Part shown: piece by piece, positions 7,772-23,207 of the stretch | Layout of the letters: each line of letters begins with the position of its first letter | Position numbering within the stretch: the first letter of the stretch is position 1 | From: an uncultured Oscillospiraceae bacterium | Lineage (GTDB): Bacteria; Bacillota; Clostridia; Oscillospirales; Oscillospiraceae | Assembly (NCBI GenBank): GCA_949494735.1 | Contig: CATABD010000011.1 | Location: 1 to 47,218 of the forward strand | Direction: 5' to 3' | Length of the DNA stretch: 47,218 bases | Notes under the pieces: model-generated | Database searches by the model: none | What the model saw: only the letters and a program-made list of their open reading frames with translations | What the model was told of the DNA's origin: nothing | Position numbers and translations under genes: made by a program

Positions 7772-10335
7772 AGAATAAGACGACCCGATTCCTCCTTACC
7801 AGCCTCATCGGGGTAGCTCTGCTGTGCGTATGCGTGTTCGGGGTTTTTGCTGTTCATATGGGCAACCAGAGCGCCGTTACCATCAACCAGGTGGGAACGC
7901 TGTACATGTCCAGCATGAGCCAGCAGACCTCCGTTCATTTTGAGAGCATCATCGGGATACAGATGAACCAGCTGCGGGCGCTGGTGGGCACCATTCCCTC
8001 CGACGCCATTCATGAGGATAAAACCTTGCAGCAGCAGCTTATGGCCCAGGCCAAGGCCCGGGACTTTGAATACCTGGGCTTCTACGGCAGCGACGGCAGC
8101 TTTGAGATGCTCTACGGTTCCCAGCTCACCGTCACCGATCCGAAACCCTTCCTGGACTCGCTGAACAAGAACCAGGAGAAGGTGGCCATTGGAACAAATG
8201 CTCAGGGCCAAAAGGTGGTTTTGCTGGGGATGCCGTCCCCCCATCCGCCCACGCCGGAGCACGACTGCGCCGCCCTGGTGGCAGGGTTGCCCGTGTCCTA
8301 CATCAGCGACAATCTCTCCCTGGAGGAGAACAGCGAGCGGGCTTATTCCTTCATCATCCGGCGGGACGGTTCCTTCGTGATCCGCAGCAACAACGCCTAC
8401 CGCAACAACTATTTTGAGCGGGTGCGGGTGCTCTACGAGGACGTAAACGGCCTTACGGCGGAGGAGTACCTTGAGGAGCTGAACGCCGCCATGGTGGAGG
8501 GGATTGACTACTCCAACGAGTTCACCATGGGAGGGGAGCGCTACCACCTCTACTGTACCCACCTGCCCTATTCCGAGTGGTTCCTGCTCACCTTCCTGCC
8601 ATACGGCTCTATGGACTCTATCGTTACCGGCTTCAGCCATGAGTGGAGCAGCCTGACTATCCTCAGCGGCACAATTATCCTTACCGCTCTGCTTCTGGTC
8701 TTTTACAAGTACTATGGACTGACCCGGAAGCAGCTGCGGGAGGTGGAGGAGGCCCGCCAGGCCGCCGAGGCCGCCCAGAAGGAGGCCGAGCACGCCAACC
8801 GGGCCAAGAGCGAGTTCCTGTCCAATATGAGCCACGATATCCGCACCCCCATGAACGCTATCGTGGGCATGACGGCTATCGCCACCGCCAATATCGACGA
8901 TACCCAGCAGGTGCACAACTGCCTGAAGAAGATCGCCCTGTCCAGCAAGCATCTGCTGGGCCTGATCAACGATGTGCTGGATATGTCCAAAATTGAGAAC
9001 GGCAAGATGACGCTGAATATGGACCAGGTATCCCTGCGTGAGGTGACGGACAGCATTGTGGCCATCTGCCAGCCCCAGGTAAAGGCCAAGAACCAGCAGT
9101 TTGATGTGTTTATCCATGACATTTCCACGGAAAACGTGCTGTGTGACAGCGTACGTCTCAACCAGGTGCTGCTCAACCTGCTGTCCAACGCCATCAAGTT
9201 TACCCCGGAGGGCGGGGAGATCCATATGGCCCTCTTCGAGGAGGCCTCCCCCAAGGGGGACGGCTTCGTGCGCATCCACATCGAAGTCAGGGACACCGGC
9301 ATCGGCATGTCCCAGGATTTCCAGAAGCATATATTCGATTCCTTTGCCCGGGAGGACAGCGCCCGGGTCCACCGCACGGAGGGCACCGGCCTTGGCATGG
9401 CCATTACCAAGTACATCGTGGTGGACGCCATGGGCGGCACCATTGAGATGGATAGCAAGCAGGGCAGGGGCACCCGGTTCTCCGTGACCCTGGATCTGGA
9501 AAAGGCACAGGTGATGGAGGAGGATATGGTCCTTCCCAACTGGAATATGCTGGTGGTAGACGATGACCGGCAGCTGTGCGAGTCCACGGTGTCCGCCTTG
9601 GGCTCCATTGGCATCAGCGCGGAGTGGACCCTGGACGGAGAGAGTGCCGTGGACATGGTGGTCAAGCGCCGCCGCCGCGGGGACGACTACCAGATTATCC
9701 TGCTGGATTGGAAGCTGCCCGGTATGGACGGCATTGCCACCGCCCGCAGCATTCGGCAGGAGCTGGGGGATAAGGTGCCCATCCTGCTCATCTCGGCCTA
9801 CGACTGGGGAGAGATCGAGGGAAAAGCCAAAGAGGCGGGGATCACAGGGTTTATCTCCAAGCCGCTGTTCAAGTCCACCCTGTTTAACAGCCTGCGCCAG
9901 TTTGCGCAGCCGCTCCAGGAGGGAGAAAAGCCGCCGGAGCAAAAGGGCCCGGATCTGCGGGGCCGGAGGGTGCTGGTGGCGGAGGACAACGAACTGAATT
10001 GGGAGATTGCCTCTGAGCTGCTCAGCGCCGAGGGGCTGGAGCTCACTTGGGCGGAAAACGGCCAGACCTGTGTGGAGATGTTTGAGCAGTCTCCTGTTGG
10101 TTATTTTGAGGCCATCCTCATGGATATCCGTATGCCGGTGATGGGGGGCTATGAGGCGACCCAGGTCATCCGGACCTTGGAGCGGCCGGACAAGGATCTG
10201 CCCATTATCGCAATGACGGCGGATGCCTTTGCCGAGGATGTGAAGCGTTCCCTGGATTGCGGCATGGATGCCCATATTGCCAAGCCGATTGACGTGCAGG
10301 AGGTCTTGCGGCTGTTGGACAAGTATCTGAAATAA
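7768..10335 (+). CDS. Hybrid sensor histidine kinase with two receiver domains
   Basis: An 855-residue membrane protein. A membrane helix at about residues 8-29 and a second at about 295-315 enclose an extracytoplasmic sensor of about 265 residues, possibly Cache-like. A coiled coil (about 320-350) leads into HisKA with MSHDIRTPMN, phosphorylated histidine H356. The ATPase domain follows with NLLSNAIKFTPEGG, DTGIGM and GTGLGM. Two receivers follow: one with D647 (LLDWKLPGMDG) and one with D786 (MDIRMPVMGG). With the HPt and c-di-GMP protein it forms a complete phosphorelay. The signal it detects is not evident. It ends in a strong terminator. Confidence 0.92.
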   Translation: MKNKTTRFLLTSLIGVALLCVCVFGVFAVHMGNQSAVTINQVGTLYMSSMSQQTSVHFESIIGIQMNQLRALVGTIPSDAIHEDKTLQQQLMAQAKARDFEYLGFYGSDGSFEMLYGSQLTVTDPKPFLDSLNKNQEKVAIGTNAQGQKVVLLGMPSPHPPTPEHDCAALVAGLPVSYISDNLSLEENSERAYSFIIRRDGSFVIRSNNAYRNNYFERVRVLYEDVNGLTAEEYLEELNAAMVEGIDYSNEFTMGGERYHLYCTHLPYSEWFLLTFLPYGSMDSIVTGFSHEWSSLTILSGTIILTALLLVFYKYYGLTRKQLREVEEARQAAEAAQKEAEHANRAKSEFLSNMSHDIRTPMNAIVGMTAIATANIDDTQQVHNCLKKIALSSKHLLGLINDVLDMSKIENGKMTLNMDQVSLREVTDSIVAICQPQVKAKNQQFDVFIHDISTENVLCDSVRLNQVLLNLLSNAIKFTPEGGEIHMALFEEASPKGDGFVRIHIEVRDTGIGMSQDFQKHIFDSFAREDSARVHRTEGTGLGMAITKYIVVDAMGGTIEMDSKQGRGTRFSVTLDLEKAQVMEEDMVLPNWNMLVVDDDRQLCESTVSALGSIGISAEWTLDGESAVDMVVKRRRRGDDYQIILLDWKLPGMDGIATARSIRQELGDKVPILLISAYDWGEIEGKAKEAGITGFISKPLFKSTLFNSLRQFAQPLQEGEKPPEQKGPDLRGRRVLVAEDNELNWEIASELLSAEGLELTWAENGQTCVEMFEQSPVGYFEAILMDIRMPVMGGYEATQVIRTLERPDKDLPIIAMTADAFAEDVKRSLDCGMDAHIAKPIDVQEVLRLLDKYLK

Positions 10336-10340
10336 GCCAG

Positions 10341-10376
10341 ACGGCCCCCGGTGAAAACCGGGGGCCGTTGATTTTT
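10341..10376 (+). terminator. Intrinsic terminator of the phosphorelay operon
   Basis: A perfect 12-bp stem, ACGGCCCCCGGT at 10341-10352 with its complement at 10357-10368, capped by a GAAA loop and followed by TGATTTTT. Confidence 0.95.
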
Positions 10377-10544
10377 GGCTGGTCCCGCCGCATATCGGAC
10401 GTGCCGGAGGAAATAGGGTGGAGGCAGGGGAGGGTGCAGGGTGCCGCGCACCATTCCCCGCCGCCCCACATAGATTGAAGGGAAACGAGAGGCAGCCCTG
10501 CCGGGCAGCGGCGGGCGGCGCCGAAACTTGGAGGAGGCTTCAGG

Positions 10545-10819
10545 ATGCCCAATATTCGATATTTTCTGGGCGGCAATACGCCCGCAGGTTTTTATTCCCT
10601 CTATCATCAGCTGTCCGATGCGGACCGGCTGCGGGCTCTGTATATCATCAAGGGCGGGCCGGGAAGCGGCAAATCCACCCTGATGCGCCGCGTGGAGCGC
10701 CACGCCCAAGCAGCCGGACTGGAGACGCAGCAAGTGCTGTGTTCCGGTGACCCGGACTCGCTGGACGCGCTGATCCTGCCCCAATTGGGGGCGGCGCTGG
10801 TGGATGGGACGGCGCCCCA
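10545..10819 (+). pseudogene. P-loop ATPase, N-terminal fragment interrupted by the integrative element
   Basis: The first 91 residues plus a partial codon of a P-loop NTPase. The start ATG has GGAGGAGG upstream. The Walker A GGPGSGKST is at about residues 37-45, after an N-terminus (RYFLGGNTPAGFYSLY) typical of PRK06851-like ATPases of about 360 residues. The frame reads GTAP at 10806-10817 and then enters foreign DNA at 10820; the chance extension stops at 10862. The missing 268 residues lie at 22401-23207. Joining the two at the shared CA (10818-10819 with 22401-22402) makes a CAC codon and an unbroken 359-residue frame. The insertion removes nothing, so the gene should be restored on excision. 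The truncated product is unlikely to work. Confidence 0.9.
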
Positions 10820-10840
10820 GGGGGTGGTGACGGGAGGACA
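10815..10840. other. attL (left attachment site)
   Basis: CCCCA at 10815-10819 is shared with the right junction. To its right, GGTGGTGACGGGAGGACA (10823-10840) is the element half of the site. Its reverse complement matches 17 of 18 bases of the arm at 22380-22397. The central dinucleotide inferred from symmetry is CA at 10818-10819. Confidence 0.85.
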
Positions 10841-10868
10841 CTTTGGGGGACAAGCTGTTTGAAATGAC

Positions 10869-10882
10869 AGGCGTAACTGCTC
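10869..10882. repeat. 14-bp inverted repeat, left copy (partner at 20722-20735)
   Basis: AGGCGTAACTGCTC here is the exact reverse complement of the sequence at 20722-20735, which lies just downstream of the serine recombinase -10 box. The core ACTGCTC also occurs at 20697-20703. This suggests a common regulator or directionality-factor site at the left end and the integrase promoter. Confidence 0.55.
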
Positions 10883-11079
10883 ACCCTTCGGGCTTGGAGG
10901 CCCGGAGAAAAAAGGCCCTGAATAATGAAAGCAGCCGTTCCTCTTCAAGGACGGCTGCGCGGGAGGTGAAGATTGCAGATTGATTGCGAACGCTATGAAG
11001 AAAAAAGGACTTTTAAACGAAACAAATCAGGCAAAAACGCATGATTTACAAAGGTATGCAACCGGGGGATGGTAACTCG

Positions 11080-11101
11080 TCGGGTTATGAGCCCGATGAG
11101 C
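11080..11101 (-). other. Initiator-tRNA(Met) anticodon-arm fragment, probable tyrosine-integrase att remnant
   Basis: On the minus strand this reads GCTCATCGGGCTCATAACCCGA (split here: GCTCATCGGGC then TCATAACCCGA). It contains a CTCATAA anticodon loop (anticodon CAT) closed by the three G-C pairs diagnostic of initiator tRNA. From memory of bacterial tRNA-fMet it differs by one base across 22. No acceptor or T arm is present, so it is not a tRNA gene. On the plus strand the same hairpin (stem 11076-11084 with 11092-11100) is followed by CCTATTTTT and may also terminate transcription. Confidence 0.6.
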
Positions 11102-11154
11102 CTATTTTTCCATAAACTTTAACATTGAATATAGCAACCGATAATCGAACTTTT

Positions 11155-11183
11155 TTGTTTGATTGTCGGTTTTTTGATATACT
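11155..11183 (+). promoter_or_regulatory. Promoter of the tyrosine integrase
   Basis: TTGTTT at 11155-11160 and TATACT at 11178-11183 are 17 bp apart, with TGA directly before the -10 (extended -10). The leader to the ATG at 11253 is about 63 bases. Confidence 0.6.
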
Positions 11184-11252
11184 TTTCTAACCATAAATCA
11201 CGGTCAAATGGCCAAAAGAAATTGCAAGATAATTGCAGAAAGGAACATAACT

Positions 11253-12365
11253 ATGATAACAGGCAGACTGGTAGAAGTCAACGACAAATACTACGCGATC
11301 CTCAACTTAAAGCACCCGGATGGGCGGCGACTCCAGAAGCGGTTTGACCTGGAACTGCCTGTACCCAACAACAAACGGCGGGCCCAGGAAAAGCTGAACG
11401 CCCTGTGCGCGGAATACACCCGTAAGCAGCAGGTGGAGCAGAACCACCCCAACGTGGTGTTTATTGATTTCGCGCTGGCCTGGATTGAGAAACGCAAGCC
11501 GGAAATCTCCCCGTCCACCTACCGCAATTACAGACACATGGTAGAGCATCATATGCGCAACTGCTTTGGCGATATGCCGCTCCGGCAGATTTCCTTCTGG
11601 GATATTGAGGACTACTACAGTTTTCTTGAGTTCAATGGGCTGTCCAGCACCACTGCCCGGCACCACCACGCCCTGCTGAAGTGCGTTTTCCATGAGGCAC
11701 ACAGGCTGGGAATCATACAGGAGGATCCGACAGAGTTTTTGAAGGCACCCAAACGTCAACCTCCGAAGGTCAGCTATTACTCTTTGCCGGAAGCACAACA
11801 GCTGATCGAGGAGGTCAAGGGCACCAAACTGGAGGTGCCGGTCACGTTGTCGCTGGCCTACGGGTTTCGCCGCAGTGAGGCGCTGGGCCTGCGGTGGGAG
11901 GACATCGACTTTGAAGGGAACCGTATCGTTGTACGCCACACGGTAGTGGAGGGGATTGAGGAGGACGGCAGGCGGATCTTGGTGGAGAAGGACACCATGA
12001 AGGCCAGGGCGTCCCGCCGGACGGTGCCTCTGTTTGAGCCCATTACCACCATGCTGAAAGGCGAGTGGGAGAGAAAGAAAGGGCTGAACCCCACATTTGT
12101 CTGCTCCGACAGCAAGGGGCAGATGATGAAGCCAGATGTTCTGAGCCATGACTTCAAAAAGTTTCTGGCGGATCACGGCCTGCGGCATATTCGTTACCAG
12201 GATTTACGTCACAGCTGTGCCAGCTTACTGCTGGCAGCCCACGTCCCGCTGATCCAGGTGCAGCACTGGCTGGGGCATGGTTCCATGCTGACCACCGCAA
12301 ACCTATATGCCCATCTGGATCCCAGTTTGGTGGATGAGTGCGGGGAAGGGATCAAAAAAATTTAG
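11253..12365 (+). CDS. Tyrosine-type site-specific integrase
   Basis: A 370-residue recombinase. An N-terminal arm-binding region (residues 1-60), a core-binding SAM-like domain (about 65-160; PEISPSTYRNYRHMVEHHM) and a catalytic domain (about 170-365) are visible. Catalytic residues: R206 (GFRRSEALGL), R319 and H320 in YQDLRHS, LGHGS, and the nucleophile Y352 in TTANLYAHL. The usual first His of the HxLRH box is Q316 here. The ATG at 11253 is chosen because AAAGGA lies 8-9 bases upstream; the longer ATG at 11208 has no ribosome site. Since the element ends belong to the serine recombinase, this integrase is probably from an older nested element, perhaps one targeting tRNA-fMet. Confidence 0.92.
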   Translation: MITGRLVEVNDKYYAILNLKHPDGRRLQKRFDLELPVPNNKRRAQEKLNALCAEYTRKQQVEQNHPNVVFIDFALAWIEKRKPEISPSTYRNYRHMVEHHMRNCFGDMPLRQISFWDIEDYYSFLEFNGLSSTTARHHHALLKCVFHEAHRLGIIQEDPTEFLKAPKRQPPKVSYYSLPEAQQLIEEVKGTKLEVPVTLSLAYGFRRSEALGLRWEDIDFEGNRIVVRHTVVEGIEEDGRRILVEKDTMKARASRRTVPLFEPITTMLKGEWERKKGLNPTFVCSDSKGQMMKPDVLSHDFKKFLADHGLRHIRYQDLRHSCASLLLAAHVPLIQVQHWLGHGSMLTTANLYAHLDPSLVDECGEGIKKI

Positions 12366-12411
12366 CGCAGACTGTTTTGCGCCAAAGCAAATGCTGTGAG
12401 CCATATTCTCC

Positions 12412-12440
12412 TTGACGCGCCCTGCGATGGCGAGTAAGAT
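12412..12440 (+). promoter_or_regulatory. Promoter of the RNA-end cassette
   Basis: TTGACG at 12412-12417 and TAAGAT at 12435-12440 with a 17-bp spacer, about 45 bp upstream of the first cassette gene and after the integrase stop. It would let the three genes be expressed independently of the integrase. Confidence 0.55.
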
Positions 12441-12484
12441 TCTCTTATAAGGCTATTTAACGCATCAAATGGGGGGCGGTCGTC

Positions 12485-12982
12485 ATGGAAATTACCGAAC
12501 AAGAAAAGCAGCGTATGAACGAAATATATTTTGCCCTGTCCACAAAGCAGGCGCAATTATTTCACGGGCTGTATCATCGTGTCTTTGAGCTGAGTACCGG
12601 TTTCTACAACGGCCACGAGCACCAGGCCCCGGACGGTACTTGGCAGACGGACTACTATCCCATCCCGGTGATTTCGGTAAAGGGCTTCTGCGATGTGGAA
12701 ATCAGCCCAGACGGCATCTCCGTCACTACGAAGAAAAAGCGAAAGGATGCGCTGGACTACTCCTTTGAGAAACTGAAGGGCTATTCGTATGAGGCTTTTG
12801 GCGTGGAGGGCTATCTGGACACCTTCTACCGGGACGGCATGACCGTCGCAGAAATGAAGGAGAACATTTCTCACAGCAAGGAGCGGGAAATCGGCTTCTG
12901 CTTCTCCTTGCCCTGGGACATCGACGGGGAGGCCATGTATGAGTTCGCGAAGCTGCTCCGGCAGGAGGGCTTCTACTATTGA
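12485..12982 (+). CDS. 165-residue unknown protein, first gene of the RNA-end cassette
   Basis: I do not recognise a family. The protein is soluble, with an acidic, helical start (MEITEQEKQRMNEIYFALS), a central beta-rich part (PIPVISVKGFCDVEISPDGISVTTKKKRKDA; split in reading as VKGFCDVEIS and DGISVTTKKK), and a C-terminal helical region ending EFAKLLRQEGFYY. There is no signal peptide or membrane helix. The ribosome site is weak (GGGGGCGG about 8 bases upstream). The next gene, an RlaP-like nucleotidyltransferase, starts 12 bp after its stop, so the two are almost certainly co-translated. By position it could be a partner or regulatory subunit of the nucleotidyltransferase, or an inhibitor-like small partner. 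That role is inference only. Confidence 0.7.
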   Translation: MEITEQEKQRMNEIYFALSTKQAQLFHGLYHRVFELSTGFYNGHEHQAPDGTWQTDYYPIPVISVKGFCDVEISPDGISVTTKKKRKDALDYSFEKLKGYSYEAFGVEGYLDTFYRDGMTVAEMKENISHSKEREIGFCFSLPWDIDGEAMYEFAKLLRQEGFYY

Positions 12983-12994
12983 GGGGGTGACCCT

Positions 12995-13996
12995 ATGAAT
13001 ATTCTGGATAGGCCGGAATACGGTTTTTTGAAAACCGGCCCGCATCTGGGGAAGAACATCATCTTCCTCACCTACGGCGGCAGCTACGCCTACGGCACCA
13101 ACGTGGAGGGCTCCGATATCGATATCCGGGGCTGTACCTTGAACAGTAAGGTGGATCTGCTGGGCATGGGTGATTTTGAACAGGTGGTGGACACGGAAAC
13201 GGACACCACCGTGTACTCCTTCAACAAGCTCCTGGACCTGCTCATCAACTGCAACCCAAACACCATCGAACTGCTGGGCTGCAAGCCGGAGCATTATTTC
13301 ATGCTGAGCCCCATCGGGAAGCAGCTTATCGACCGGCGCAAGCTGTTCCTGTCCCAGCGGGCCATCAGTTCCTTCGGCGGCTATGCGGGCCAGCAGCTTC
13401 GGCGGCTGGAAAACGCCCTGGCCCACGATGCCTACCCCGCCGAGGTGAAGGAGCGGCACATCAAAGGCTCCTGCGAGAACGCCATGCTCTCCTTCCGGGA
13501 GCAATACCGCACTTTTACCCCGGAGCAGATCAGACTGTCCGTGGGTGAGGCGGGCGGACGGCCCCAGGTGCTGGCGGATATTGCCATGGAGCGGGTGCCC
13601 CTGCGGGCCTTTACCGGGATGCTGGGCGAACTGGTGGAAATCACCCGGAATTACGACAAAATTCACTTCCGCAACAAAAAGAAGGACGACGCCCACCTGA
13701 ACAAGCACGCCATGCACCTGATCCGGCTCTACCTCATGTGTCTGGACATTTTGGAGCGGGAGGAAATTGTCACCTTCCGGGAGAAGGACCACGACCTGCT
13801 GATGGATATCCGAAACGGGCGCTATCAGCGGGCGGATCACACCTTCAACGATGATTTTTATGACCTGATCAACGAGCTGGAGCGGCGGCTGGACTATGCC
13901 GCAAAATACACCTCCCTCCCGGAAGCGCCTGACATGGCCGCCATCGAGGCATTCCAGATGGAGGTCAACGAGAGGGTGGTGCGGGGTGAAATTTGA
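12995..13996 (+). CDS. RlaP-like nucleotidyltransferase (DNA polymerase beta superfamily)
   Basis: A 333-residue protein with the minimal nucleotidyltransferase signature at the N-terminus: GGSYAYGTN (28-36), then SDIDIRG (40-46), giving catalytic aspartates D41 and D43. The rest is helical and contains a substrate region around residues 85-110 (NCNPNTIELLG) typical of the PF10127/RlaP-like group. That family has been linked to RNA repair in comparative genomics. The context supports this: its stop overlaps by 11 bp the start of a CCA-adding enzyme. The likely reaction is transfer of a nucleotide to an RNA (or protein) end, but the substrate is unknown. The gene is GC-rich and host-like in codon use. 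Confidence 0.8.
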   Translation: MNILDRPEYGFLKTGPHLGKNIIFLTYGGSYAYGTNVEGSDIDIRGCTLNSKVDLLGMGDFEQVVDTETDTTVYSFNKLLDLLINCNPNTIELLGCKPEHYFMLSPIGKQLIDRRKLFLSQRAISSFGGYAGQQLRRLENALAHDAYPAEVKERHIKGSCENAMLSFREQYRTFTPEQIRLSVGEAGGRPQVLADIAMERVPLRAFTGMLGELVEITRNYDKIHFRNKKKDDAHLNKHAMHLIRLYLMCLDILEREEIVTFREKDHDLLMDIRNGRYQRADHTFNDDFYDLINELERRLDYAAKYTSLPEAPDMAAIEAFQMEVNERVVRGEI

Positions 13997-15332
13997 CATT
14001 CCCGCCGGGGCGCGACAAGTTCTCCAAACGCTGACTGCGGCGGGCCATGAAGCCTATCTGGTGGGTGGCTGCGTGCGGGATCTCCTGCGGGGTGTGGAGC
14101 CCCACGACTGGGATATCTGCACCTCCGCCCTCCCAGAGGAGACGGAGTCTTGCTTTGCCGGACAGCGGATCATTGAGACCGGATTAAAGCACGGCACCGT
14201 CACCGTGCTGATGGAGGGTAAGCCCTACGAGATCACCACCTACCGCACGGAGGGGCCCTACTCCGACCGCCGGCGGCCGGACTATGTGCGTTTTGTCCCC
14301 AATTTGAGGGAGGACTTAGCCCGCCGGGACTTCACCATGAACGCCATCGCTATGGACTTGGACGGGAACCTGCGCGATCCCTTCGGCGGTGCGGAGGACA
14401 TCAAATGCGGGCTGATCCGCTGTGTGGGTGAGCCGGATCAGCGCTTCCAGGAGGACGGCCTGCGGGTGATGCGGGCCCTGCGGTTCGGGGCCGCATTCGG
14501 CTATGCTATTGAGGAGCGCACCGCCCGGGCCGTCCACGAGAACCGGGCCATGCTGGATCGGGTGGCGGCGGAGCGGATCAATGTGGAGCTGCGCAAGCTG
14601 CTGGTGGGGCCGAACGCCGGGGACGTTCTGCGGCAGTACCCGGACGTGTTCTGCCGGTTCTGGCCGGAATTGGAACCGTTGGCGGCGCTGGAGCAGCACA
14701 ACCCCTGGCACTGCTGGGGCGGCTGGGAGCATACCATCCGCGCTCTGGAGGCGGCCCCCGCCGATGTGACCCTGCGGCTGGCCATGCTGCTCCACGACAT
14801 CGGCAAGCCCGCCTGCAAGTCCACCGACGAACAGGGTATCGACCACTTCTACGGCCACCCGGCCGTCAGCGCCAAACTGGCGGACGAGATGCTCCGGGCG
14901 CTGAAATTTGACAACAAGACCCGGGGGCGGGTGGTCTTGCTGGTGGAGCGCCACGACGCGCAGCTGCCGCCCAGGAGCCAGGTCATCCGGCGCTGGCTCA
15001 ACCGTCTGGGGCCGGGGGCGTTCTTTCAGCTTCTGGAGGTCAAGCGGGCGGATAATATGGGGCAAGCCCTGGAAAAGGTGAAAAACTGTTTAGCTGAGCT
15101 GGACGTAATTAACAGTAAAGCGGAACAGATTCTGGCGGAAGGGCAGTGCTTCACGTTGAAAGATTTAACCGTGAACGGCTGGGATGTAGTTTCGGCAGGT
15201 ATCGAACCCGGACCAGAAGTGGGGCAAGTACTCAATGGATTATTGGAACAGGTGCTCAGTGGGAATGTGCCAAACGAACGAAGCGCATTATTAAAGCTGT
15301 TGAATTGCAAGTCAATGAATAGCCCCAAGTAA
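13986..15332 (+). CDS. cca: CCA-adding tRNA nucleotidyltransferase / poly(A) polymerase family with HD domain
   Basis: A 448-residue class II enzyme. The head carries LVGGCVRDLLRG (25-36) and DWD at 41-43 as the catalytic metal ligands. RRDFTMNA, DPFGG, LRVMRALRF and ERINVELRKLL follow in family order. An HD domain has H270-D271 in MLLHDIGKP, which in this family can hydrolyse 2',3'-cyclic or 2'-phosphates. The start is GTG at 13986, reading MKFDIPAG, overlapping the upstream stop by 11 bp. Together with the RlaP-like gene this makes an RNA 3'-end repair pair within a mobile element, separate from any housekeeping cca gene. The family also includes poly(A) polymerases, which sequence reading alone does not separate. 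Confidence 0.88.
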   Translation: MKFDIPAGARQVLQTLTAAGHEAYLVGGCVRDLLRGVEPHDWDICTSALPEETESCFAGQRIIETGLKHGTVTVLMEGKPYEITTYRTEGPYSDRRRPDYVRFVPNLREDLARRDFTMNAIAMDLDGNLRDPFGGAEDIKCGLIRCVGEPDQRFQEDGLRVMRALRFGAAFGYAIEERTARAVHENRAMLDRVAAERINVELRKLLVGPNAGDVLRQYPDVFCRFWPELEPLAALEQHNPWHCWGGWEHTIRALEAAPADVTLRLAMLLHDIGKPACKSTDEQGIDHFYGHPAVSAKLADEMLRALKFDNKTRGRVVLLVERHDAQLPPRSQVIRRWLNRLGPGAFFQLLEVKRADNMGQALEKVKNCLAELDVINSKAEQILAEGQCFTLKDLTVNGWDVVSAGIEPGPEVGQVLNGLLEQVLSGNVPNERSALLKLLNCKSMNSPK

Positions 15333-15346
15333 CGCACTATTTAAAG

Positions 15347-15376
15347 AACCGCAGATGCCTGTGCATCTGCGGTTCT
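15347..15376. terminator. Bidirectional terminator between convergent cca and DRT1
   Basis: A perfect 13-bp stem (GAACCGCAGATGC at 15347-15359 with 15364-15376) and a CTGT loop. The T-rich tail (TTTAAAT) is on the minus-strand side, so it mainly serves the reverse transcriptase operon. Confidence 0.85.
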
Positions 15377-15396
15377 CACAGCATCGGTATCTATGG

Positions 15397-18300
15397 TTAA
15401 GCGCCAGTCAAATATTCCCATAAAGTGCCGTTTTGCTTGTGTTCCGGAATGCACGGATCAAAGCACGGTGGTGTCGGTTTAAATCGGGGGTCATCCCTCT
15501 GTAGCTCGTATTCCTTCCGCTGATAGTCGCGAAGGGATGCCAATTCGATATGATCCATCAAAATGGTATGATTGCGCCCGCCCTTTGTTTTGATCAGGTC
15601 GCGCTTCTCAGATTTCGCAGGAACCATGACCCGGCTGTCTCCATAATCGGAGGAATTGACCTGGATGCAGTAACAGTGCAAATCCCGGCATAGGGATTCC
15701 ACGATGCTGCTAAAATATGGAACATCTTTGTTCCACTCCACAGCTATGGTCAAATCCGCAAGCGCCTGGAACAGGGAACGATCCGCAATGGAGGCAAGCT
15801 CATAGCAGCAGTACACGGAGAACCACAGATCCCGCCAGCAGAACAACTGGTACTGAGTCCCATGAAACGGCTCCATCCGATAGCCCAGAATCATTCTGGC
15901 TTCATTTGGGGAGTAATGTACCTTTTGGTGGCATATGATTTGAGCAAACTTATAATCATTTTCCCGATATGGTAGAATGACCGCCGTCAGGTTGTAGACT
16001 TTTCGTGATCCCGACACAATGTGCTCAATGCCCGTAATCAACGCCATCTGATTGTTGGCGCACAGCCGTGAGATGTCGGGCAGCCATTCCCAGGGCAAAA
16101 AGTTTTCCGGCAGTACCAGCAGATCGGCCTTTGCCGAGAGGGCCTCCTTCAACAATTTGCGAACTTGCTGATACCGCGCAAAGGAACGGTTGGGTTTCCC
16201 GGTCAGGGCCTTTTTGAAATCGCTCTCATATAGCCGGGCATTGCCTATGGCCACCTTGATTTCGCCGGCCGCAGCACTGTCCACGCGAATTGCGCAGCAG
16301 CCCTGTGCGCTTCCCCACTTGATAAGCTTTGCCTGTGCGGGAGAGGGCGGAAAATCACCACCGTCATGCTCCATCAACTCGTAATTCCAAAGGTTATAAA
16401 GTGTGTGGATTTTTGTAAGTTGCTCCGAGGAATTATCCAGCGGCTCTCCCAACGCAATGTTTTTACAAGTGAGGGCATACGCGATCTCATGGGGTGTAAC
16501 CATATAGGGGAAATATGAGTAGGGCTCTTCCACCAGATCCCAGTCCGCATAGGAGCAAAAGGCTTCCATATGGCATAGGTTAACGGTCTTGCTTTCCTCT
16601 TCGAATACATCCTGCCTCAACCATCCCATCGGCAGCGGAAGCACATATTTATTCACCATGCGGCACTGGCAGTAAGACACGCGGCGTTCCTTCAGATCGT
16701 ATTCGTAAAACAGGGAGAAGTCCATAACCTTATCCCGCTTTTCCGCTGCCTGGATCGCCGCAAGAGCTTTGTTCATGCCCCTTCCCCAGCACAGTGCAGA
16801 GGTGCGGCAAACAGCCGCGCGAAGGGTCAGGTACAACCCTCGGCGGTGTGCCTGACTTTGAGCCAGCCAGTCTGGCGCATCGTATGCGGCGATAGCGGCC
16901 AGAATACTTTTGACCAGCTTTTCATAATAATCCAGGCGGTCATTTATGACCAAGATTTCCAAAAGCCGCTCCCACAGCGCGTAGTTTTCAATCAATGCGC
17001 GCTGATTCAAGATTGTCAACAAATCCCGGTCAAAGGCGCTCTCCTGCTTATCTCGGATCAGGTTCCCCACCTTGCGGTATTTGCCCAGAAATTTAGAAAG
17101 AGAGAACTTATCCAGCGCAACGCTGGACACGCCCCGCAGCTTGTGGGGTGTGTCGCTGTTAGTTAGCTTAAAAATTTCGCTGTAATCATTGTCACCCAAG
17201 GCGCGATCCACGTCCGGGAGATAGCGGAACTCGCTGGCATTGCGCCCGATTTCCACCCTGAAGCAGTCCAGCAGCGCCCGCGTGGATCCCTCTCTGAAAT
17301 AAAAGATCTTGACCTTGTCATTTTGTATCTGAATATCCGATCTGCCCGGCCCCTCCGCGTCTGGCTGAAAAATAGATTGATCGACCCGATAGACACAGAA
17401 GGGGGGTGCCTGCGGGTCATCCTCCTGTTGCCGGGAGGACTTCCGCTGTTCGGGGGTCATCTCCTCCTCCGGTACCCGGCAAAAGATGCGGGTTTTAAAA
17501 CTTGCACACCCCCCACCCCGCTCGGAGCAGGGGCCAAAATAGTACTCGATAATATCACCGGCCGTCAGCTTCGTCCGGTTCTCCGCGGTTCCCCGGGCCC
17601 GCTTGTGCAAGGGGCTGTTTTTTTCCACCTTGTCGACGATAATAATATCATCCACGTATCTGCCATAGTAAACGGGATTGATGCGCTCGCTGATTGCCTT
17701 ATCAAAGAAAGTCAGGGCCCAATTGGACAGTATGTACGAGGGGAAGAATCCGATAGGCAAAAATGTCCTTTGACCCAGGGGAAGCTCGTCATCTGCATTG
17801 ATCTGACGTACTTTATTGGAATATACCTGGAGAACCTGATAGACAAAGGTATGGACTCGTTCTGTCCAGGCCGGACATGTGCCCACTGATTCGCGGAATC
17901 CTCGATAGATTTCAGCGAAACCCTTCTCTGAGATGTGCACACTGTAGAAGAAATTGCGAAAATCAAGGGTGAGGATCAGTGCGTCCTGATTGTTATCCAG
18001 ACGCTCTTTTGCGTGGGCAAGAGCGGTATCCCGCCAGCTCTCGTATTGGGAAAAATAGGGCTCAAACAGGTAGGGGGAATAGGTGACTGTACCGCTGTCG
18101 GGATGGTATAGGTTTTTACGCAGTCGGTTCCCATAGGAATGCTCATACATCAAGCAGTGTTCCGGGTCGTCTCGGCCGTCCAGGTAGGCGCCGATCATCA
18201 ACACCCAGAGCGTACCGAGAATATGCCCCGCAACGGGAAGGTCAATAAAATATTTTGCCGATTCCAGCCTCGTTGGTTCACTGTCGGCGTTAAAGATAAT

Positions 18301-18570
18301 CTGTCCCTCCGCACAGCTGCACAGCCTCTTGGGAAAGACAAACACATCAATTTTTTCCAGGATATCCGCGGTAAAATCCTCCCAGCCATCGGAACGCCCT
18401 TTTAGGGCCTGAACAATAGTGGAGATATTTTCTTCTATCCCCTCGCTCTCAAAGGCGACCAGGTCATCTACCAACGGCAGCTGCGTTTTGTCAAAGTACA
18501 AGTAGCTTTTTAACTTTTTGTATGCTTTATATACCCATTCCCTGGTGAGAATATTTAGATTCTTTTCCAT
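15397..18570 (-). CDS. Reverse transcriptase-nitrilase fusion, defence-associated RT type 1 (DRT1, UG1)
   Basis: A 1057-residue fusion. The reverse transcriptase domain spans about residues 100-400, with the first catalytic Asp D203 in LTLDFRNFF and the active-site box YVDD at 305-308 (D307, D308). A helical middle region follows (about 400-760). The C-terminal nitrilase domain is about 765-1000, with the triad E822 (VLPENFLP), K883 (HQKVHYSP) and C922 (YCCYELAS). RT plus C-terminal nitrilase defines DRT type 1 anti-phage systems, and both catalytic centres look intact. The ATG at 18570 has GGAGGAAGG upstream. It overlaps the end of recQ by 44 bp. Role in phage defence is by family; its molecular product is unknown to me. 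Confidence 0.9.
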   Translation of the reverse strand: MEKNLNILTREWVYKAYKKLKSYLYFDKTQLPLVDDLVAFESEGIEENISTIVQALKGRSDGWEDFTADILEKIDVFVFPKRLCSCAEGQIIFNADSEPTRLESAKYFIDLPVAGHILGTLWVLMIGAYLDGRDDPEHCLMYEHSYGNRLRKNLYHPDSGTVTYSPYLFEPYFSQYESWRDTALAHAKERLDNNQDALILTLDFRNFFYSVHISEKGFAEIYRGFRESVGTCPAWTERVHTFVYQVLQVYSNKVRQINADDELPLGQRTFLPIGFFPSYILSNWALTFFDKAISERINPVYYGRYVDDIIIVDKVEKNSPLHKRARGTAENRTKLTAGDIIEYYFGPCSERGGGCASFKTRIFCRVPEEEMTPEQRKSSRQQEDDPQAPPFCVYRVDQSIFQPDAEGPGRSDIQIQNDKVKIFYFREGSTRALLDCFRVEIGRNASEFRYLPDVDRALGDNDYSEIFKLTNSDTPHKLRGVSSVALDKFSLSKFLGKYRKVGNLIRDKQESAFDRDLLTILNQRALIENYALWERLLEILVINDRLDYYEKLVKSILAAIAAYDAPDWLAQSQAHRRGLYLTLRAAVCRTSALCWGRGMNKALAAIQAAEKRDKVMDFSLFYEYDLKERRVSYCQCRMVNKYVLPLPMGWLRQDVFEEESKTVNLCHMEAFCSYADWDLVEEPYSYFPYMVTPHEIAYALTCKNIALGEPLDNSSEQLTKIHTLYNLWNYELMEHDGGDFPPSPAQAKLIKWGSAQGCCAIRVDSAAAGEIKVAIGNARLYESDFKKALTGKPNRSFARYQQVRKLLKEALSAKADLLVLPENFLPWEWLPDISRLCANNQMALITGIEHIVSGSRKVYNLTAVILPYRENDYKFAQIICHQKVHYSPNEARMILGYRMEPFHGTQYQLFCWRDLWFSVYCCYELASIADRSLFQALADLTIAVEWNKDVPYFSSIVESLCRDLHCYCIQVNSSDYGDSRVMVPAKSEKRDLIKTKGGRNHTILMDHIELASLRDYQRKEYELQRDDPRFKPTPPCFDPCIPEHKQNGTLWEYLTGA

Positions 18571-20398
18571 GATTTTCCTTCCTCCAATCCCGGATCGCCT
18601 TTAAAAACTCGTCCCCATAACGTTCTGCTTTGACGGCTCCGACGCCAGATACCTCCAGAAATTCTTTCATCGTGGTGGGCTGCCGAGCCGCCATATCCTC
18701 CAGCGACGCGTTAGAAAAAACCACGTAGGCGGGGATATCTCCCGCCGAGGCCAATCTGGTGCGAACAGTCCGAAGAAGCGCCAGCAGACTTGTGTCCGCT
18801 GGTGCGACAGACCTTCTCTTGAGAATTCTGCCCGCCGTATCTTGCTTCTTTGCGATATAGTTCACACGCTCCCCTTGAAACAGCACCTGCCTCGCCCGCT
18901 GTGTGGTGTGCAGAACAGGATAGTTCGTCCCCTCCACACACAGGTAGCCCTGATCCACCAGATAATCGATATACGCGCGAATTTGCATCCTGTCCACACC
19001 GGCCATGATGCCATAGGTCGGCAGCTTGTCCAGCTCCAGCTGGAGCACACGCTGATCCTTACTGCCCCTGAGCATTCGGACGACCAGGGCCGTGCCTAGC
19101 CCGGAGCGATATTGACGCTCCACGCGCGCGACCGCAGAAAGAATTTTCTGTGCTTCCAATGTGATATCCCTCTGCTCCAGCTCCCCGGTGCAGTTACTGC
19201 ATCTGCCGCAATAATCCGGCGCCGTCTCACCAAAATATCGCAGCAGATAGGCCCGGAGGCAGCCGGTGGTTTTGCAGTAGGCGGTCATCCGTTTTAGCCG
19301 CTCCAGATCCCGCTGCCGGAAGAACTCTCGCTCCTGCTCCGAGAGCTCCTCGTTATCAGAGACTGTGTCGATCAAAAATTTCATCGTCCGCACATCGTTT
19401 TCTGAAAAAAACAGTACGCAGTGGGCGTGGGCGCCGTCCCGCCCGGCCCGGCCCGCCTCCTGGTAGTAGCTTTCCATATCCTTAGGCATATTGTAATGCA
19501 ACACAAACCCTACGTTGGATTTGTCGATACCCATGCCAAAGGCGTTGGTGGCCACCATGACCCGGGCCCGGTCATACACGAAATCCTCCTGGTTCCGTCT
19601 GCGTTCATCCTCAGATAGGCCCGCATGGTATCGGGTTGCAGAAATCCCGTCCCCTGTTAGTCCGGCGCAGACGGACTCGACTATTTTGCGGGTGGCGCAG
19701 TAGACGATACCGCTCTGCCCCGGACGATCATTAATAAATTTTTTCAAATAGGCATCCTTACTCTTGGGACGAACCGTCTCAAAATAGAGGTTGGGTCGAT
19801 CAAAGCCGGTGGTGACGCACAGCGGCTTTTGCAGCAAAAGCAGACGCTTGATGTCCTCCTTTACCTGCTCGGTGGCGGTGGCGGTGAATGCCCCGACCGC
19901 CGGGCGGCGGGGAAGCCCCTCCAAAAACTCCACAATTTTCAGATAGCTGGGACGAAAATCCTGGCCCCACTGGGATACACAATGGGCCTCATCCACCGCC
20001 AGCAGGGAGATTACCGCCTCCTGTGCAAAGCGCAGGAAATTGGGGGCGGACAGCCGCTCCGGGGTCACATAGATCAGCTTATATCCTCCCTGCCGAGCCC
20101 GCTGGAACACATCCCGCTGCTGTTCCGAGGAGAGGGAGGAGTTGATAAAGGCAGCGGGGATTCCGGTCTGGGTGAGGGCCGCCACCTGATCCTTCATCAG
20201 GGAAATCAGCGGGGAGATAACTAGTGTCACCCCAGGCAGCAGCAGGGCGGGCAGCTGGTAGCAAATGGACTTGCCCGCCCCGGTGGGCATAATGCCCAGC
20301 ACATCCCGCCCGGTCAGAAGGGCGTCCACCAGCGCCTCCTGCCCTGAGCGAAATTCACTGTGGCCGAAATACTGCTTCAGTGCCGCATACTTGTCCAT
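18527..20398 (-). CDS. recQ: RecQ-family DNA helicase, co-operonic with DRT1
   Basis: A 623-residue 3'-5' DNA helicase with full RecQ layout. Walker A MPTGAGKS is at residues 37-44, DEAH at 136-139, and motif VI region QEAGRAGRDG near 325-335. The zinc site has cysteines in YCKTTGC and DYCGRCSNC (about 376-407). An RQC winged-helix region and a C-terminal HRDC domain (about 530-605, VSGVGAVKAERYG) follow. The ATG at 20398 follows GAGGTGG by 8 bases. The last 44 bases overlap the start of the RT-nitrilase gene, so translation is coupled. It may be a spare recombination helicase or a functional partner that unwinds the RT substrate. The latter is inference. Confidence 0.92.
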   Translation of the reverse strand: MDKYAALKQYFGHSEFRSGQEALVDALLTGRDVLGIMPTGAGKSICYQLPALLLPGVTLVISPLISLMKDQVAALTQTGIPAAFINSSLSSEQQRDVFQRARQGGYKLIYVTPERLSAPNFLRFAQEAVISLLAVDEAHCVSQWGQDFRPSYLKIVEFLEGLPRRPAVGAFTATATEQVKEDIKRLLLLQKPLCVTTGFDRPNLYFETVRPKSKDAYLKKFINDRPGQSGIVYCATRKIVESVCAGLTGDGISATRYHAGLSEDERRRNQEDFVYDRARVMVATNAFGMGIDKSNVGFVLHYNMPKDMESYYQEAGRAGRDGAHAHCVLFFSENDVRTMKFLIDTVSDNEELSEQEREFFRQRDLERLKRMTAYCKTTGCLRAYLLRYFGETAPDYCGRCSNCTGELEQRDITLEAQKILSAVARVERQYRSGLGTALVVRMLRGSKDQRVLQLELDKLPTYGIMAGVDRMQIRAYIDYLVDQGYLCVEGTNYPVLHTTQRARQVLFQGERVNYIAKKQDTAGRILKRRSVAPADTSLLALLRTVRTRLASAGDIPAYVVFSNASLEDMAARQPTTMKEFLEVSGVGAVKAERYGDEFLKAIRDWRKENHGKESKYSHQGMGI

Positions 20399-20445
20399 GC
20401 ACAGAACCACCTCATCTGTAATCCGAATGGGGCCAATTTTTTACT

Positions 20446-20474
20446 ATTTTACCATATCAAAAAGGTGGAAACAA
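20446..20474 (-). promoter_or_regulatory. Promoter of the recQ-DRT1 operon
   Basis: On the minus strand TTGTTT (20474-20469) and TAAAAT (20451-20446) have a 17-bp spacer, with TGG before the -10. The leader to the ATG at 20398 is about 40 bases. Confidence 0.65.
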
Positions 20475-20530
20475 GTCCATGCTCATATTCGGTACGGCAC
20501 GCCCATAAAATTTCATCGGGGGGAATTTTC

Positions 20531-20644
20531 ATGAAAAATCAGTCTTTCATTATTATTGAATACCACCCGGATTACGGAGATTCCGCCGGACAATGTATCT
20601 GCCAAACCATCACCACCTGGCTCACCAAAACCCTCCACCAATGA
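20531..20644 (+). CDS. 37-residue small ORF upstream of the serine recombinase
   Basis: ATG with GGGGGGAA about 8 bases upstream and a stop that runs into a hairpin terminator. The peptide begins MKNQSFIIIEYHPDYG and ends TWLTKTLHQ. There is no membrane helix or known motif. Its place between the recQ promoter and the recombinase, with its own terminator, suggests a genuine short transcript, possibly a recombination directionality or regulatory peptide. That is speculation; it could also be a non-coding RNA or spurious. Confidence 0.4.
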   Translation: MKNQSFIIIEYHPDYGDSAGQCICQTITTWLTKTLHQ

Positions 20645-20676
20645 TGCCTGCGTCGTTTTATCGGCGCAGGCATTTC
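20644..20676 (+). terminator. Terminator after the 37-residue ORF
   Basis: A 9-bp stem ATGCCTGCG (20644-20652) with CGCAGGCAT (20665-20673), then TTC. The poly-T tail is short. Confidence 0.55.
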
Positions 20677-20686
20677 AAATAAATCC

Positions 20687-20728
20687 TTGCGGCCCGACTG
20701 CTCCTGCGGTATCATAGTACCGAGCAGT
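20687..20728 (+). promoter_or_regulatory. Serine recombinase promoter with overlapping inverted-repeat operator
   Basis: TTGCGG at 20687-20692 and TATCAT at 20710-20715 with a 17-bp spacer. An inverted repeat ACTGCTC (20697-20703) / GAGCAGT (20722-20728) brackets the -10, and a second, CGGTA (20707-20711) / TACCG (20718-20722), lies inside it. This is a natural place for a repressor, perhaps the recombinase or its accessory factor. Confidence 0.6.
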
Positions 20729-20738
20729 TACGCCTTTG

Positions 20739-20755
20739 AGGAGGTGTAACAAATC
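20739..20755 (+). promoter_or_regulatory. Shine-Dalgarno pointing at an AUC start codon
   Basis: AGGAGGTG (20739-20746) is a near-perfect ribosome site. Eight bases after its GGAGG core is ATC at 20753, not ATG. The frame is closed by TAA at 20747-20749, so no upstream start exists, and the first in-frame ATG, GTG or TTG is the ATG at 20942. Confidence 0.65.
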
Positions 20756-22291
20756 CTTTGCGCGATTTATACACGGCTGAGTAAGGAGGATGAGGACAAA
20801 CACCAGCCCGAGTCCGAGAGCATCCAGAACCAAAAATCCCTGCTGACCCACTACGCCATCGACCACGGCTGGGACATCTACACCATTTACTGCGATGAGG
20901 ACTTCTCCGGCATTGACAGCGACCGCCCGGATTTCAACCGCATGATTGAGGCCGCCAAACAGAAAAAGTTCCAAATCGTCCTGTGCAAGTCCCAGTCCCG
21001 GTTCACCCGGGACATGGAGCTGGTGGAGAAATACATCCACGGACTGTTTCCTATCTGGGGTATCCGGTTCATCGCCGTGGCGGACAATGCCGACACCGAA
21101 GTCAAGGGGAACAAAAAAGCCCGGCAGATCAACGGCCTGGTGAACGAGTGGTATTTGGAGGACCTGTCCGAAAACGTCCGCATGGTATTCGACCTGAAGC
21201 GGAGGGAGGGCAAGTACATCGGCGGTTTCCCCATCTACGGCTACCAGAAGGATCCGACGGACAAAAACCACATCGTCCCCGACCCAGAGGCGGCGGAGGT
21301 TGTTCGCCAAATTTTCCAGCTGTCGTTAGAAGGCCATGGCCGCCAGAACATCGCCTATCTGCTGAACCAGCAGGGCATCCCCAACCCCACCCGGTATAAG
21401 GCCGAGCGGGGCTGGACCTGCAATCACCCCATGAAAAACGACTTCGGCCTGTGGAACAAGGTGACGGTGGGCCGCATCCTCACCAACGAGATGTACACTG
21501 GGGTGATGATCCAGGGCCGCCGGAAAAAGGTGAGCTACAAATCCAAGGTCATCATCGACACCCCGGAGGATCAGTGGTACCGGGTGGAGGGCACCCACGA
21601 GCCCATCATCGACCGGGCCACCTTCGACGCCGTCCAGCGTTCCCTCAAGCTGCGCACCAAGACCGACGGCTCCGGCGAGGCCCACCTGCTGTCCGGACTG
21701 GTGAAGTGCGCCGACTGCGGCTCCACCATGAGCAAGTGCTCCAACGGCAAGCAAAGCTACCTCCGCTGCAAACTGTATGCCGACAGCGGGAAGCCGCGCC
21801 TGTGTACCCGCCACTCCGTCCGGCTGGACCAGCTCATCGACCTGGTGTCCGAGCGCATCCGCTACTACGTCCAAACCTATTATGAACTGGACCCCAACGA
21901 CCTACAGCCCCAGAAGGACACCCGCCGGGACGCTTTGGAGCAGGAGCAAAGAGCCCTAACCGCCCAACTGGATAAGCGCAGCCAAGCTCTCAAAGCGCTG
22001 TACTTAGACAAGGTATCGGGCATTCTCAGTGAGAGCCAATTCGTGGAGCTGAACCAATCCTTCCTGGACGAAAAAAGCCGCCTGGAGCGGCGGCTGGCGT
22101 ATATTGGCGAGGAATTGGCCCAAAAGGAGGATGCTCAACAACAAACCGACCTGCTGGAGCGCGCCCGAGAGCTGCTCAAGCTGGAAACTGTCCCCCGGGA
22201 GCTGGTGGTGGGTTTGATCGAAAAAATCGAGATCGGAGAGAAGCACCCGGACACTGGCCAACAAAACGTGTCTATCGCCTGGAAGTTCTAA
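20753..22291 (+). CDS. Large serine recombinase (integrase of the element)
   Basis: A 512-residue protein if translation begins at ATC 20753. The N-terminal resolvase domain starts ILCAIYTRLSKEDED, giving catalytic Ser10, and continues with SESIQNQ and DEDFSGIDSDRPDFNRM. The recombinase domain (about 150-290) has the DPEAAEVVRQIF and LNQQGIPNPTRY region. A zinc ribbon with CADCG and later Cys residues lies near 320-360, and a coiled coil follows (about 385-470). An ATG at 20942 would remove 63 residues, including the catalytic serine, and is therefore not the functional start. The gene sits at the right end next to attR, as usual for these elements. Confidence 0.9.
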   Translation: MLCAIYTRLSKEDEDKHQPESESIQNQKSLLTHYAIDHGWDIYTIYCDEDFSGIDSDRPDFNRMIEAAKQKKFQIVLCKSQSRFTRDMELVEKYIHGLFPIWGIRFIAVADNADTEVKGNKKARQINGLVNEWYLEDLSENVRMVFDLKRREGKYIGGFPIYGYQKDPTDKNHIVPDPEAAEVVRQIFQLSLEGHGRQNIAYLLNQQGIPNPTRYKAERGWTCNHPMKNDFGLWNKVTVGRILTNEMYTGVMIQGRRKKVSYKSKVIIDTPEDQWYRVEGTHEPIIDRATFDAVQRSLKLRTKTDGSGEAHLLSGLVKCADCGSTMSKCSNGKQSYLRCKLYADSGKPRLCTRHSVRLDQLIDLVSERIRYYVQTYYELDPNDLQPQKDTRRDALEQEQRALTAQLDKRSQALKALYLDKVSGILSESQFVELNQSFLDEKSRLERRLAYIGEELAQKEDAQQQTDLLERARELLKLETVPRELVVGLIEKIEIGEKHPDTGQQNVSIAWKF

Positions 22292-22338
22292 GAAAAACCC
22301 CAAGCGAAACACAGTTTCGCAATTAAAGTTCTTTTTCG

Positions 22339-22366
22339 GTTCCTTTTTCTTTCAAGAAAAAGGAAC
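22339..22366. terminator. Hairpin after the serine recombinase
   Basis: A 13-bp A/T-rich inverted repeat, GTTCCTTTTTCTT (22339-22351) with 22354-22366, with only two unpaired bases at the centre. It lacks a clear T tail and could be a terminator or a feature of the element end. Confidence 0.45.
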
Positions 22367-22379
22367 AAAGCCCCCGTAA

Positions 22380-22402
22380 TGTCCTCCCGTAACCACCCCC
22401 CA
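22380..22402. other. attR (right attachment site)
   Basis: TGTCCTCCCGTAACCACC (22380-22397) is the element half; CCCCA at 22398-22402 is the shared core, and 22403 onward is host gene. Symmetry places the crossover dinucleotide CA at 22401-22402. Confidence 0.85.
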
Positions 22403-23207
22403 CATAGTAGAGCCCCAATGTCCCGGCGTGGTGGAGCGCTACATAGACCTGAGCCAGTACTATGACTGCGCTGGCCTCCAGCCGTTGAAGCGGGATATAC
22501 TGGCGGCAACGGCAGAATACCAGGGGCACTACAAGCGGGTGTATCGCTGTCTGGGGGCGGCAGGGGAGCTGCGCCGGGATATGAACGAATTGATAGACAC
22601 CCGGCCGGTCCAGAAGCGGCTGGGCAAGCGGGCGGCAGGCATTATCAGCCGGGAGCTGAAGGGGCCGGCACAGGGAGAAGGCCGGACGGAGCAGCGTTTT
22701 TTATCCGCAGTCACCCATAAAGGGGTTTTCACCCTATGGGACACGGTGTCCGCCCAGGCAGATCGGGTGTATGAACTGGCAGGGGACTATGGACTGGCCC
22801 ACCACATGCTCACCCCCATCCTCACTGCCGCATTGGCCGCAGGGCACAACGCGGTGGCCTGTCCTGATCCCATGGCCCCTGACCGGCTGGCGCATCTGAT
22901 CTTCCCGGGGCTGTCGCTGGCTTTTGTCACCTCCACCCAGGAGGATCCATGGCCCCACCGGGCATACCGGCGGCTGCGCCTGGATGCCATGGCAGACGCG
23001 GAGGCGTACCGCGCCAACCGGCCCCGGCTGCGCTTTGCGAAGCGGGTGGCATCGGCGCTGCTGGACGAAGGGGTGGCAGGGCTTGTCCAGGCTAAGGAGG
23101 CCCATGACCGGCTGGAAAAGCTCTACAACCCCTATGTGGATTTCGGCGGCGTAGCCCGGATGGCAGACCAGGTGGCAGACCAGATACTGGCGCTGAGGGA
23201 CGAGTAA
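22401..23207 (+). pseudogene. P-loop ATPase, C-terminal fragment
   Basis: The remaining 268 residues of the ATPase whose start lies at 10545. The frame opens with HIVEPQCPGVVERY directly after the element and continues through a helical, Arg-rich domain to the stop at 23205-23207. The region includes VTHKGVFTLWDTV and LYNPYVDFGGVARMADQ, typical of the second half of PRK06851-like proteins. A GTG at 22428 lies in the frame, but it has no good ribosome site and there is no promoter between the recombinase and this point, so this half is probably not made as a separate working protein. The split is otherwise clean, with no internal stop or frameshift. Confidence 0.9.

Follow-up and report, generated by a model that had tools for sequence, protein, structure and literature searches.

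Reverse transcriptases (RTs) of the UG/Abi group that are fused to a nitrilase or a phosphohydrolase are defined as class 3 (PMC13275509), and UG1 and UG5 have both been noted as nitrilase fusions (PMC8934634). DRT1 (defence-associated reverse transcriptase type 1, UG1) makes template-free, protein-primed DNA adducts and depends on residues of both its RT and its nitrilase. It forms dormant filaments; dormancy is maintained by the adducts, and its authors emphasise that cells might otherwise die unintentionally. T4 phages escaping DRT1 carry mutations in the Dda helicase, which is necessary but not sufficient (PMC13275509). A UG5 RT-nitrilase together with a membrane protein is a working antiphage system and belongs to a different clade from type I DRT (PMC9122126). 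Here we describe a UG5 RT-nitrilase gene that overlaps a recQ gene in an uncultured Oscillospiraceae bacterium (assembly GCA_949494735.1, contig CATABD010000011.1, positions 1 to 47,218; this whole stretch of 47,218 nucleotides is called the window). The two genes are a real, conserved pair in a gut bacterium, and the same pairing is found in several distant relatives. The UG5 RT-nitrilase is already known as an antiphage enzyme; RecQ would be an optional partner. With moderate confidence we regard the pair as a two-gene, one-operon antiphage module of an ordinary RecQ and a class 3 UG5 RT-nitrilase, in which RecQ takes part in defence.

The original prediction for this locus, made from the sequence alone, had called the RT-nitrilase a DRT type 1 (UG1) enzyme. 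This label had to be given up: the protein matches the PADLOC UG5-nitrilase profile PDLC03780 with 760 bits over its full length (residues 4-1045), compared with 66 bits for the Drt1a profile, where the best stretch lies in the nitrilase part. A search for Drt1a in the class gave 0/391 and is uninformative, since control genomes gave no match either. The catalytic residues named in the prediction are present and conserved. The RT aspartates D203, D307 and D308 and the nitrilase residues E822 and K883 are identical in all 39 aligned homologues; C922, which completes the nitrilase triad, is identical in 38 of them and replaced by serine in L054. S446 is the sole serine identical across all 39 homologues and is a candidate protein-priming residue. 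The matches to Pfam RVT_1 and CN_hydrolase fall just below the Pfam cut-offs. A profile built from the homologues matches DRT1 (PDB 9yfd) across the RT and nitrilase regions and aligns C922 with C1116 of DRT1. The AlphaFold2 model (mean pLDDT 86.6, pTM 0.88) matched nitrilases and amidases in Foldseek (best E 4e-9); 9yfd was not among the 50 listed of 432 PDB fold matches. By its near-cutoff Pfam matches, its fold matches to nitrilases and amidases and the profile match to 9yfd, the window protein falls into class 3 of the UG/Abi RTs.

All five domains by which RecQ identity was judged (Table 1) are present in the window RecQ, in agreement with the earlier statement that its helicase, zinc and HRDC parts are intact, and the overlap of both genes is confirmed by the coordinates of the open reading frames. 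A GGAGG motif lies inside recQ, just 5′ of the RT-nitrilase ATG. The window assembly, which is approximately 85% complete, gave no RQC match (E<=1e-8) other than the window RecQ. The GC content is 51% for the RT gene and 61% for the window. A second genome of the genus, assembled separately, has the same pair (G703, L019/L029), which rules out an assembly artefact. Both genes are under purifying selection: between the window and L029, dN/dS is 0.07 for the RT (dS 1.9) and 0.13 for RecQ (dS 1.2), values that are approximate because dS is high.

The frequency of the pairing was determined in 85 non-redundant UG5 loci, made up of 78 genome loci from an alignment-guided scan (at least 370 loci confirmed, the best 80 used), the window and six loci from genome samples. 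Duplicates were merged (L005=L045, L027=L080, L259=L072, L260=L063, L007=L038, L019=L029, L010 within L026); a 17-bit match in G234 and viral loci, which lie outside the 85, were left out of the counts. At least 1.9 kb is available on both sides of the RT match in 58 loci; 27 have less than 1.9 kb on one side, where some RecQ neighbours could be missed, and a few loci are fragmentary or broken. Altogether, six loci encode an intact RecQ in the adjacent gene on the same strand (the window, L029, L031, L052, L062 and L262), and no further true RecQ was found in the flanks of the 85. The two genes overlap by 44 bp in the window, 41 bp in L029 and 19 bp in L031, and are separated by approximately 48 bp in L052, 47 bp in L262 and 29 bp in L062. 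In L062 recQ lies downstream of the RT gene, the reverse of the order at the other loci; the adjacency is therefore not one frozen junction. The RT gene of L262 (8210-17118) is broken by an insert of approximately 6 kb, which carries genes for a serine recombinase and for a MatE transporter.

Two other loci gave RecQ-like matches. A 420-aa DEAD-box helicase in L055 was rejected as RecQ by its length and domain order. L030 (Syntrophomonas, 5954-16437) contains, in this order, a GmrSD restriction gene, a C-terminal remnant of recQ, the UG5 RT-nitrilase gene and a gene for a protein of 1604 aa that combines a RecQ-like with a UvrD-like helicase part and gave the match. The remnant, which matches the window RecQ with E 8e-6 and that of L020 at 74% over 23 aa, ends just before the RT gene, and for this reason the pair looks old in the lineage of the window, L029, L031 and L030. 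The original prediction holds in part: the pairing recurs, in six loci plus the L030 remnant, but an intact adjacent RecQ is absent from 79 of the 85 loci, so that for the family as a whole the observation named as refuting it, a lack of RecQ next to almost all homologous RT-nitrilases, was largely made. RecQ is therefore at most an optional, lineage-specific partner of the UG5 RT-nitrilase. Outside these loci, alignment scans of viral sequences yielded four loci (L107-L110) in which the match extends over most of the protein and the flanks hold no RecQ, and otherwise short RT matches. Single-sequence scans of genome and viral contigs confirmed no relative, phage records contained no match, and the 10 plasmid records found were all below 60% identity and each covered less than 80% of the query.

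In a tree of the RTs (69 rows; 16 RTs without an open frame of 700 aa, none with RecQ in its flanks, were omitted) the RecQ-linked enzymes occupy three places: the window, L029 and L031 together with L030; L052 with L262; and L062. L052 and L262 have common type III restriction genes upstream and were therefore counted as one origin. The tree requires three changes if the L030 remnant is scored as RecQ-bearing and four if it is not. RecQ occurs in 5/27 rows of a Firmicutes-rich clade (21 of these rows with both flanks of at least 1.9 kb) versus 0/42 other rows (p 0.007; the rows are not independent). As a control, 24 stretches (365 kb) around 25 HsdR places of the same class, several of them cut by contig ends, contained no RecQ. 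Random placement, estimated by simple arithmetic with approximately 2,500 genes per genome, predicts approximately 0.03 to 0.07 adjacencies in 85 loci, compared with the three lineages seen, a figure that overstates the case because defence islands are not random.

Several observations weigh against a part of RecQ in defence, beginning with the 79 loci without it. The RecQ label is weakly clustered on the RT tree, as 42/500 and 31/500 label shuffles needed as few changes, and this tree cannot separate independent gains from an early gain followed by losses. The HsdR control is small (5/27 versus 0/24, p 0.05; 5/79 for the window and scan loci versus 0/24, p 0.59). L030 has a truncated RecQ, yet its RT is an open frame of 1090 aa. 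UG5 RTs often lie beside restriction genes, whose domains lead the tally of neighbour genes (86 scanned, 98 listed; 11 Methylase_S, 8 HSDR_N), so that neighbours may be unrelated defence cargo. Dda, with which RecQ might be compared, is a 5′-3′ helicase of the phage and not a host RecQ. Finally, RT-linked RecQs do not form a clade and are scattered among unlinked ones; the linked RecQ of L031 is nearest to the second RecQ of its own genome, and same-genus RecQs without an RT are among those nearest to the window RecQ. A dedicated RecQ subfamily diversifying together with the RT was thus rejected by two RecQ trees (L189/L190 omitted from the second), and the linked proteins are ordinary RecQs. 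It follows that, should RecQ be a partner at all, any member of the family seems to suffice.

The strongest alternative, which we consider possible though less probable than a joint module, makes RecQ a passenger, a repair helicase that travels in the same cargo but works autonomously, while the RT-nitrilase acts alone and uses the recQ transcript and ribosome flow. The absence of RecQ from most UG5 loci, the ordinary nature of the linked RecQs, which resemble those of their hosts, and the many other defence genes next to UG5 RTs agree with this. In addition, the linked RecQ is the sole RQC match found in the genomes of the window, L029, L052 and L062 (completeness is given for one only), and could therefore serve general repair. 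The recurrence in three RT lineages and in both gene orders speaks against this, as does the L031 genome, which already has another RecQ. The same-genus genomes also speak against a passenger. RecQ relatives (E<=1e-100) occur in 7/41 of them and are missing in 34, so that the genus does not carry it as a fixed gene; a TauE-like gene adjoins RecQ in G709 and G719, and typA is near it in G709. The RT was found in 2/42 same-genus genomes, the window genome and G703, which matches window positions 13001-22291 at 78%. In G722 the cca gene adjoins the serine recombinase gene, approximately 245 bp replace approximately 5.4 kb, and recQ and RT are both absent; in G720 the same gap is filled by two genes with best PADLOC matches to AriB and AriA (a PARIS-like pair). 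That G722 lacks both genes at this site and G720 holds the PARIS-like pair there shows the RecQ-RT pair to be cargo, presumably exchangeable. G713 has a 314-aa frame in the gap, presumably metabolic.

Improbable, in our view, is RecQ as a safety factor that removes or limits RT-made single-stranded DNA (ssDNA) or protects host replication forks, so that the nitrilase does not fire without infection; in that case RecQ would be required for the host to tolerate the system, not for defence. RecQ acts on structures containing ssDNA, which would suit such a role. In DRT1 the adducts hold the enzyme dormant, and the danger of unintended cell death is pointed out (PMC13275509). Most UG5 loci, however, show no RecQ, and L030 lost RecQ with its RT intact, though a RecQ-UvrD-like protein is encoded downstream. 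That the adjacency arose by chance in defence islands collecting helicases is very improbable: many UG5 loci do lie beside restriction genes, some neighbours are UvrD-like or other helicases and the small HsdR control does not rule it out, but every full-length RecQ match in the 85 loci is the immediate same-strand neighbour, none occurs in the 24 HsdR stretches, and dN/dS of both genes is low.

For the module of RecQ and RT-nitrilase, the recurrent arrangement of the genes leads us to infer cooperation of the two proteins, by physical or functional contact. RecQ is a 3′-5′ ssDNA translocase. By analogy to DRT1, the RT would probably make untemplated, protein-attached ssDNA that assembles the nitrilase and holds it; both the protein priming and the control through oligomers are assumed from this likeness. 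RecQ would probably act on this ssDNA or on replicating phage DNA and so set when the nitrilase fires, and the nitrilase would then halt the infected cell, a presumably abortive outcome. More tentatively, and with more doubt than confidence, RecQ may truly be the second component of a class 3 DRT that is gated by a helicase and in which a host ssDNA motor controls the DNA adducts of the RT and licenses or fires the nitrilase, as a counterpart of the phage helicase in DRT1; three RT lineages would then have acquired the helicase separately.

The signals expected for one operon were found with reservations. The shared promoter proposed earlier is weak by consensus and was not listed by the consensus promoter scan of the window, but a like element, TTGTTT-17-TACAAT, was recognised by eye at the matching position of the sister locus L019/L029. 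For the shared terminator, a strong hairpin is present in the window, and L029 has an equally strong one of unlike sequence at the same place (z -9.2); the T tail of the window hairpin is poor, however, and the terminator scan did not list this hairpin. Rfam gave no match in the whole window at the gathering threshold.

Three further observations concern the flanks of the cargo site. The block from the integrase to the recombinase (window 7768-23207) is inverted relative to its flanks in comparison with G703 (L199/L200), the flank genes w22428 and w7768 swapping sides and strand; the segment may be invertible or may have been re-inserted. The apparent start of the serine recombinase has no ATG, GTG or TTG (window 20740-20755). 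GGAGG is followed 8 nt on by ATC or ATT and then by CTT TGC or TGT, a pattern found by search at seven places (the window, L029, L191, L193, two copies in L196, and L200, of which L029 and L200 represent one genome region) and not matched by the L192 copy. In the window the ATC is in frame, with an in-frame TAA two codons before it, and the gene may be AUC/AUU-initiated. Finally, the cca frame is immediately preceded, with an overlap, by the frame of a nucleotidyltransferase of the RlaP type (Pfam RlaP, RNA repair; window 12995-15332 for the two together), and this stretch is collinear in L192, L193, L194 and L199; as a possible tRNA/RNA-repair pair it is worth a look.

Table 1. Features of the recQ/RT-nitrilase locus and its surroundings in window coordinates.
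Feature	Position	Strand	Evidence and remarks
recQ, 627 aa	18527..20410	-	start GTG 20410, or ATG 20398; Pfam DEAD, Helicase_C, RecQ_Zn_bind, RQC, HRDC
UG5 RT-nitrilase, 1057 aa	15397..18570	-	ATG start; RT D203/D307/D308; nitrilase E822/K883/C922
44-bp overlap between the 3′ end of recQ and the 5′ end of the RT gene	18527..18570	-	sequence
Putative promoter TTGTTT-17-TAAAAT	20446..20474	-	weak by consensus; like element at same place in L019/L029
Putative shared terminator, a hairpin between the RT gene and the convergent cca gene	15345..15376	-	z -6.2
Segment replaced at same site in relatives	15225..20602	.	approximately 245 bp there in G722 (L193); AriA/AriB-like pair in G720 (L192)
cca tRNA nucleotidyltransferase, cargo-site flank	13896..15332	+	Pfam; synteny
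Large serine recombinase, other cargo-site flank	20753..22291	+	Pfam (scanned from first ATG, 20942); apparent start ATC 20753

RecQ-like helicases and RT partners have been recorded in other defence contexts. The PADLOC profile RTasHel (PDLC03802) stands for a helicase recorded as RT partner, but here it matches UvrD-like proteins, and it was not among the 25 listed of 48 PADLOC matches to the window RecQ. PsyrTA and Dpd contain a RecQ-family helicase in a defence context, and the matches of the window RecQ to them reflect the common RecQ family; to our knowledge, these helicases have no RT-nitrilase partner. In the open literature searched, mostly at the level of listings, no description of RecQ as a partner of RT-nitrilases was found, and an earlier mention is possible.

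The UG5 system of P4-like satellites (Rousset 2022, PMC9122126) shares with the window a UG5 RT with a C-terminal nitrilase, is experimentally antiphage and is located where a mobile element has its defence hotspot. Its partner, however, is a protein with one transmembrane segment (1TM) and not RecQ, which also counts against RecQ as a partner, and its host element is an enterobacterial satellite; that paper mentions RecQ once, in the reference list. DRT1 (PMC13275509, PDB 9yfd) likewise combines an RT with a C-terminal nitrilase, and the RT aspartates and the nitrilase cysteine align with those of the window protein. It differs in matching another profile, in being a single gene or accompanied by drt1b, and in that the helicase belongs to the phage; a word search of the main text of the DRT1 paper found neither UG5 nor RecQ. 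Template-free synthesis is a feature of DRT1 (PMC13275509) and a prediction for the UG5 protein. A natural operon coupling a helicase to a cousin of DRT1 offers a defined two-gene system for asking whether a motor moving along ssDNA controls adduct and nitrilase. It bears on how class 3 RT-nitrilases sense phages, as DRT1 needs a phage helicase (PMC13275509). Our preferred reading of the pair described here is a variant of the UG5 system with optional assistance by a helicase, which possibly mirrors this need.

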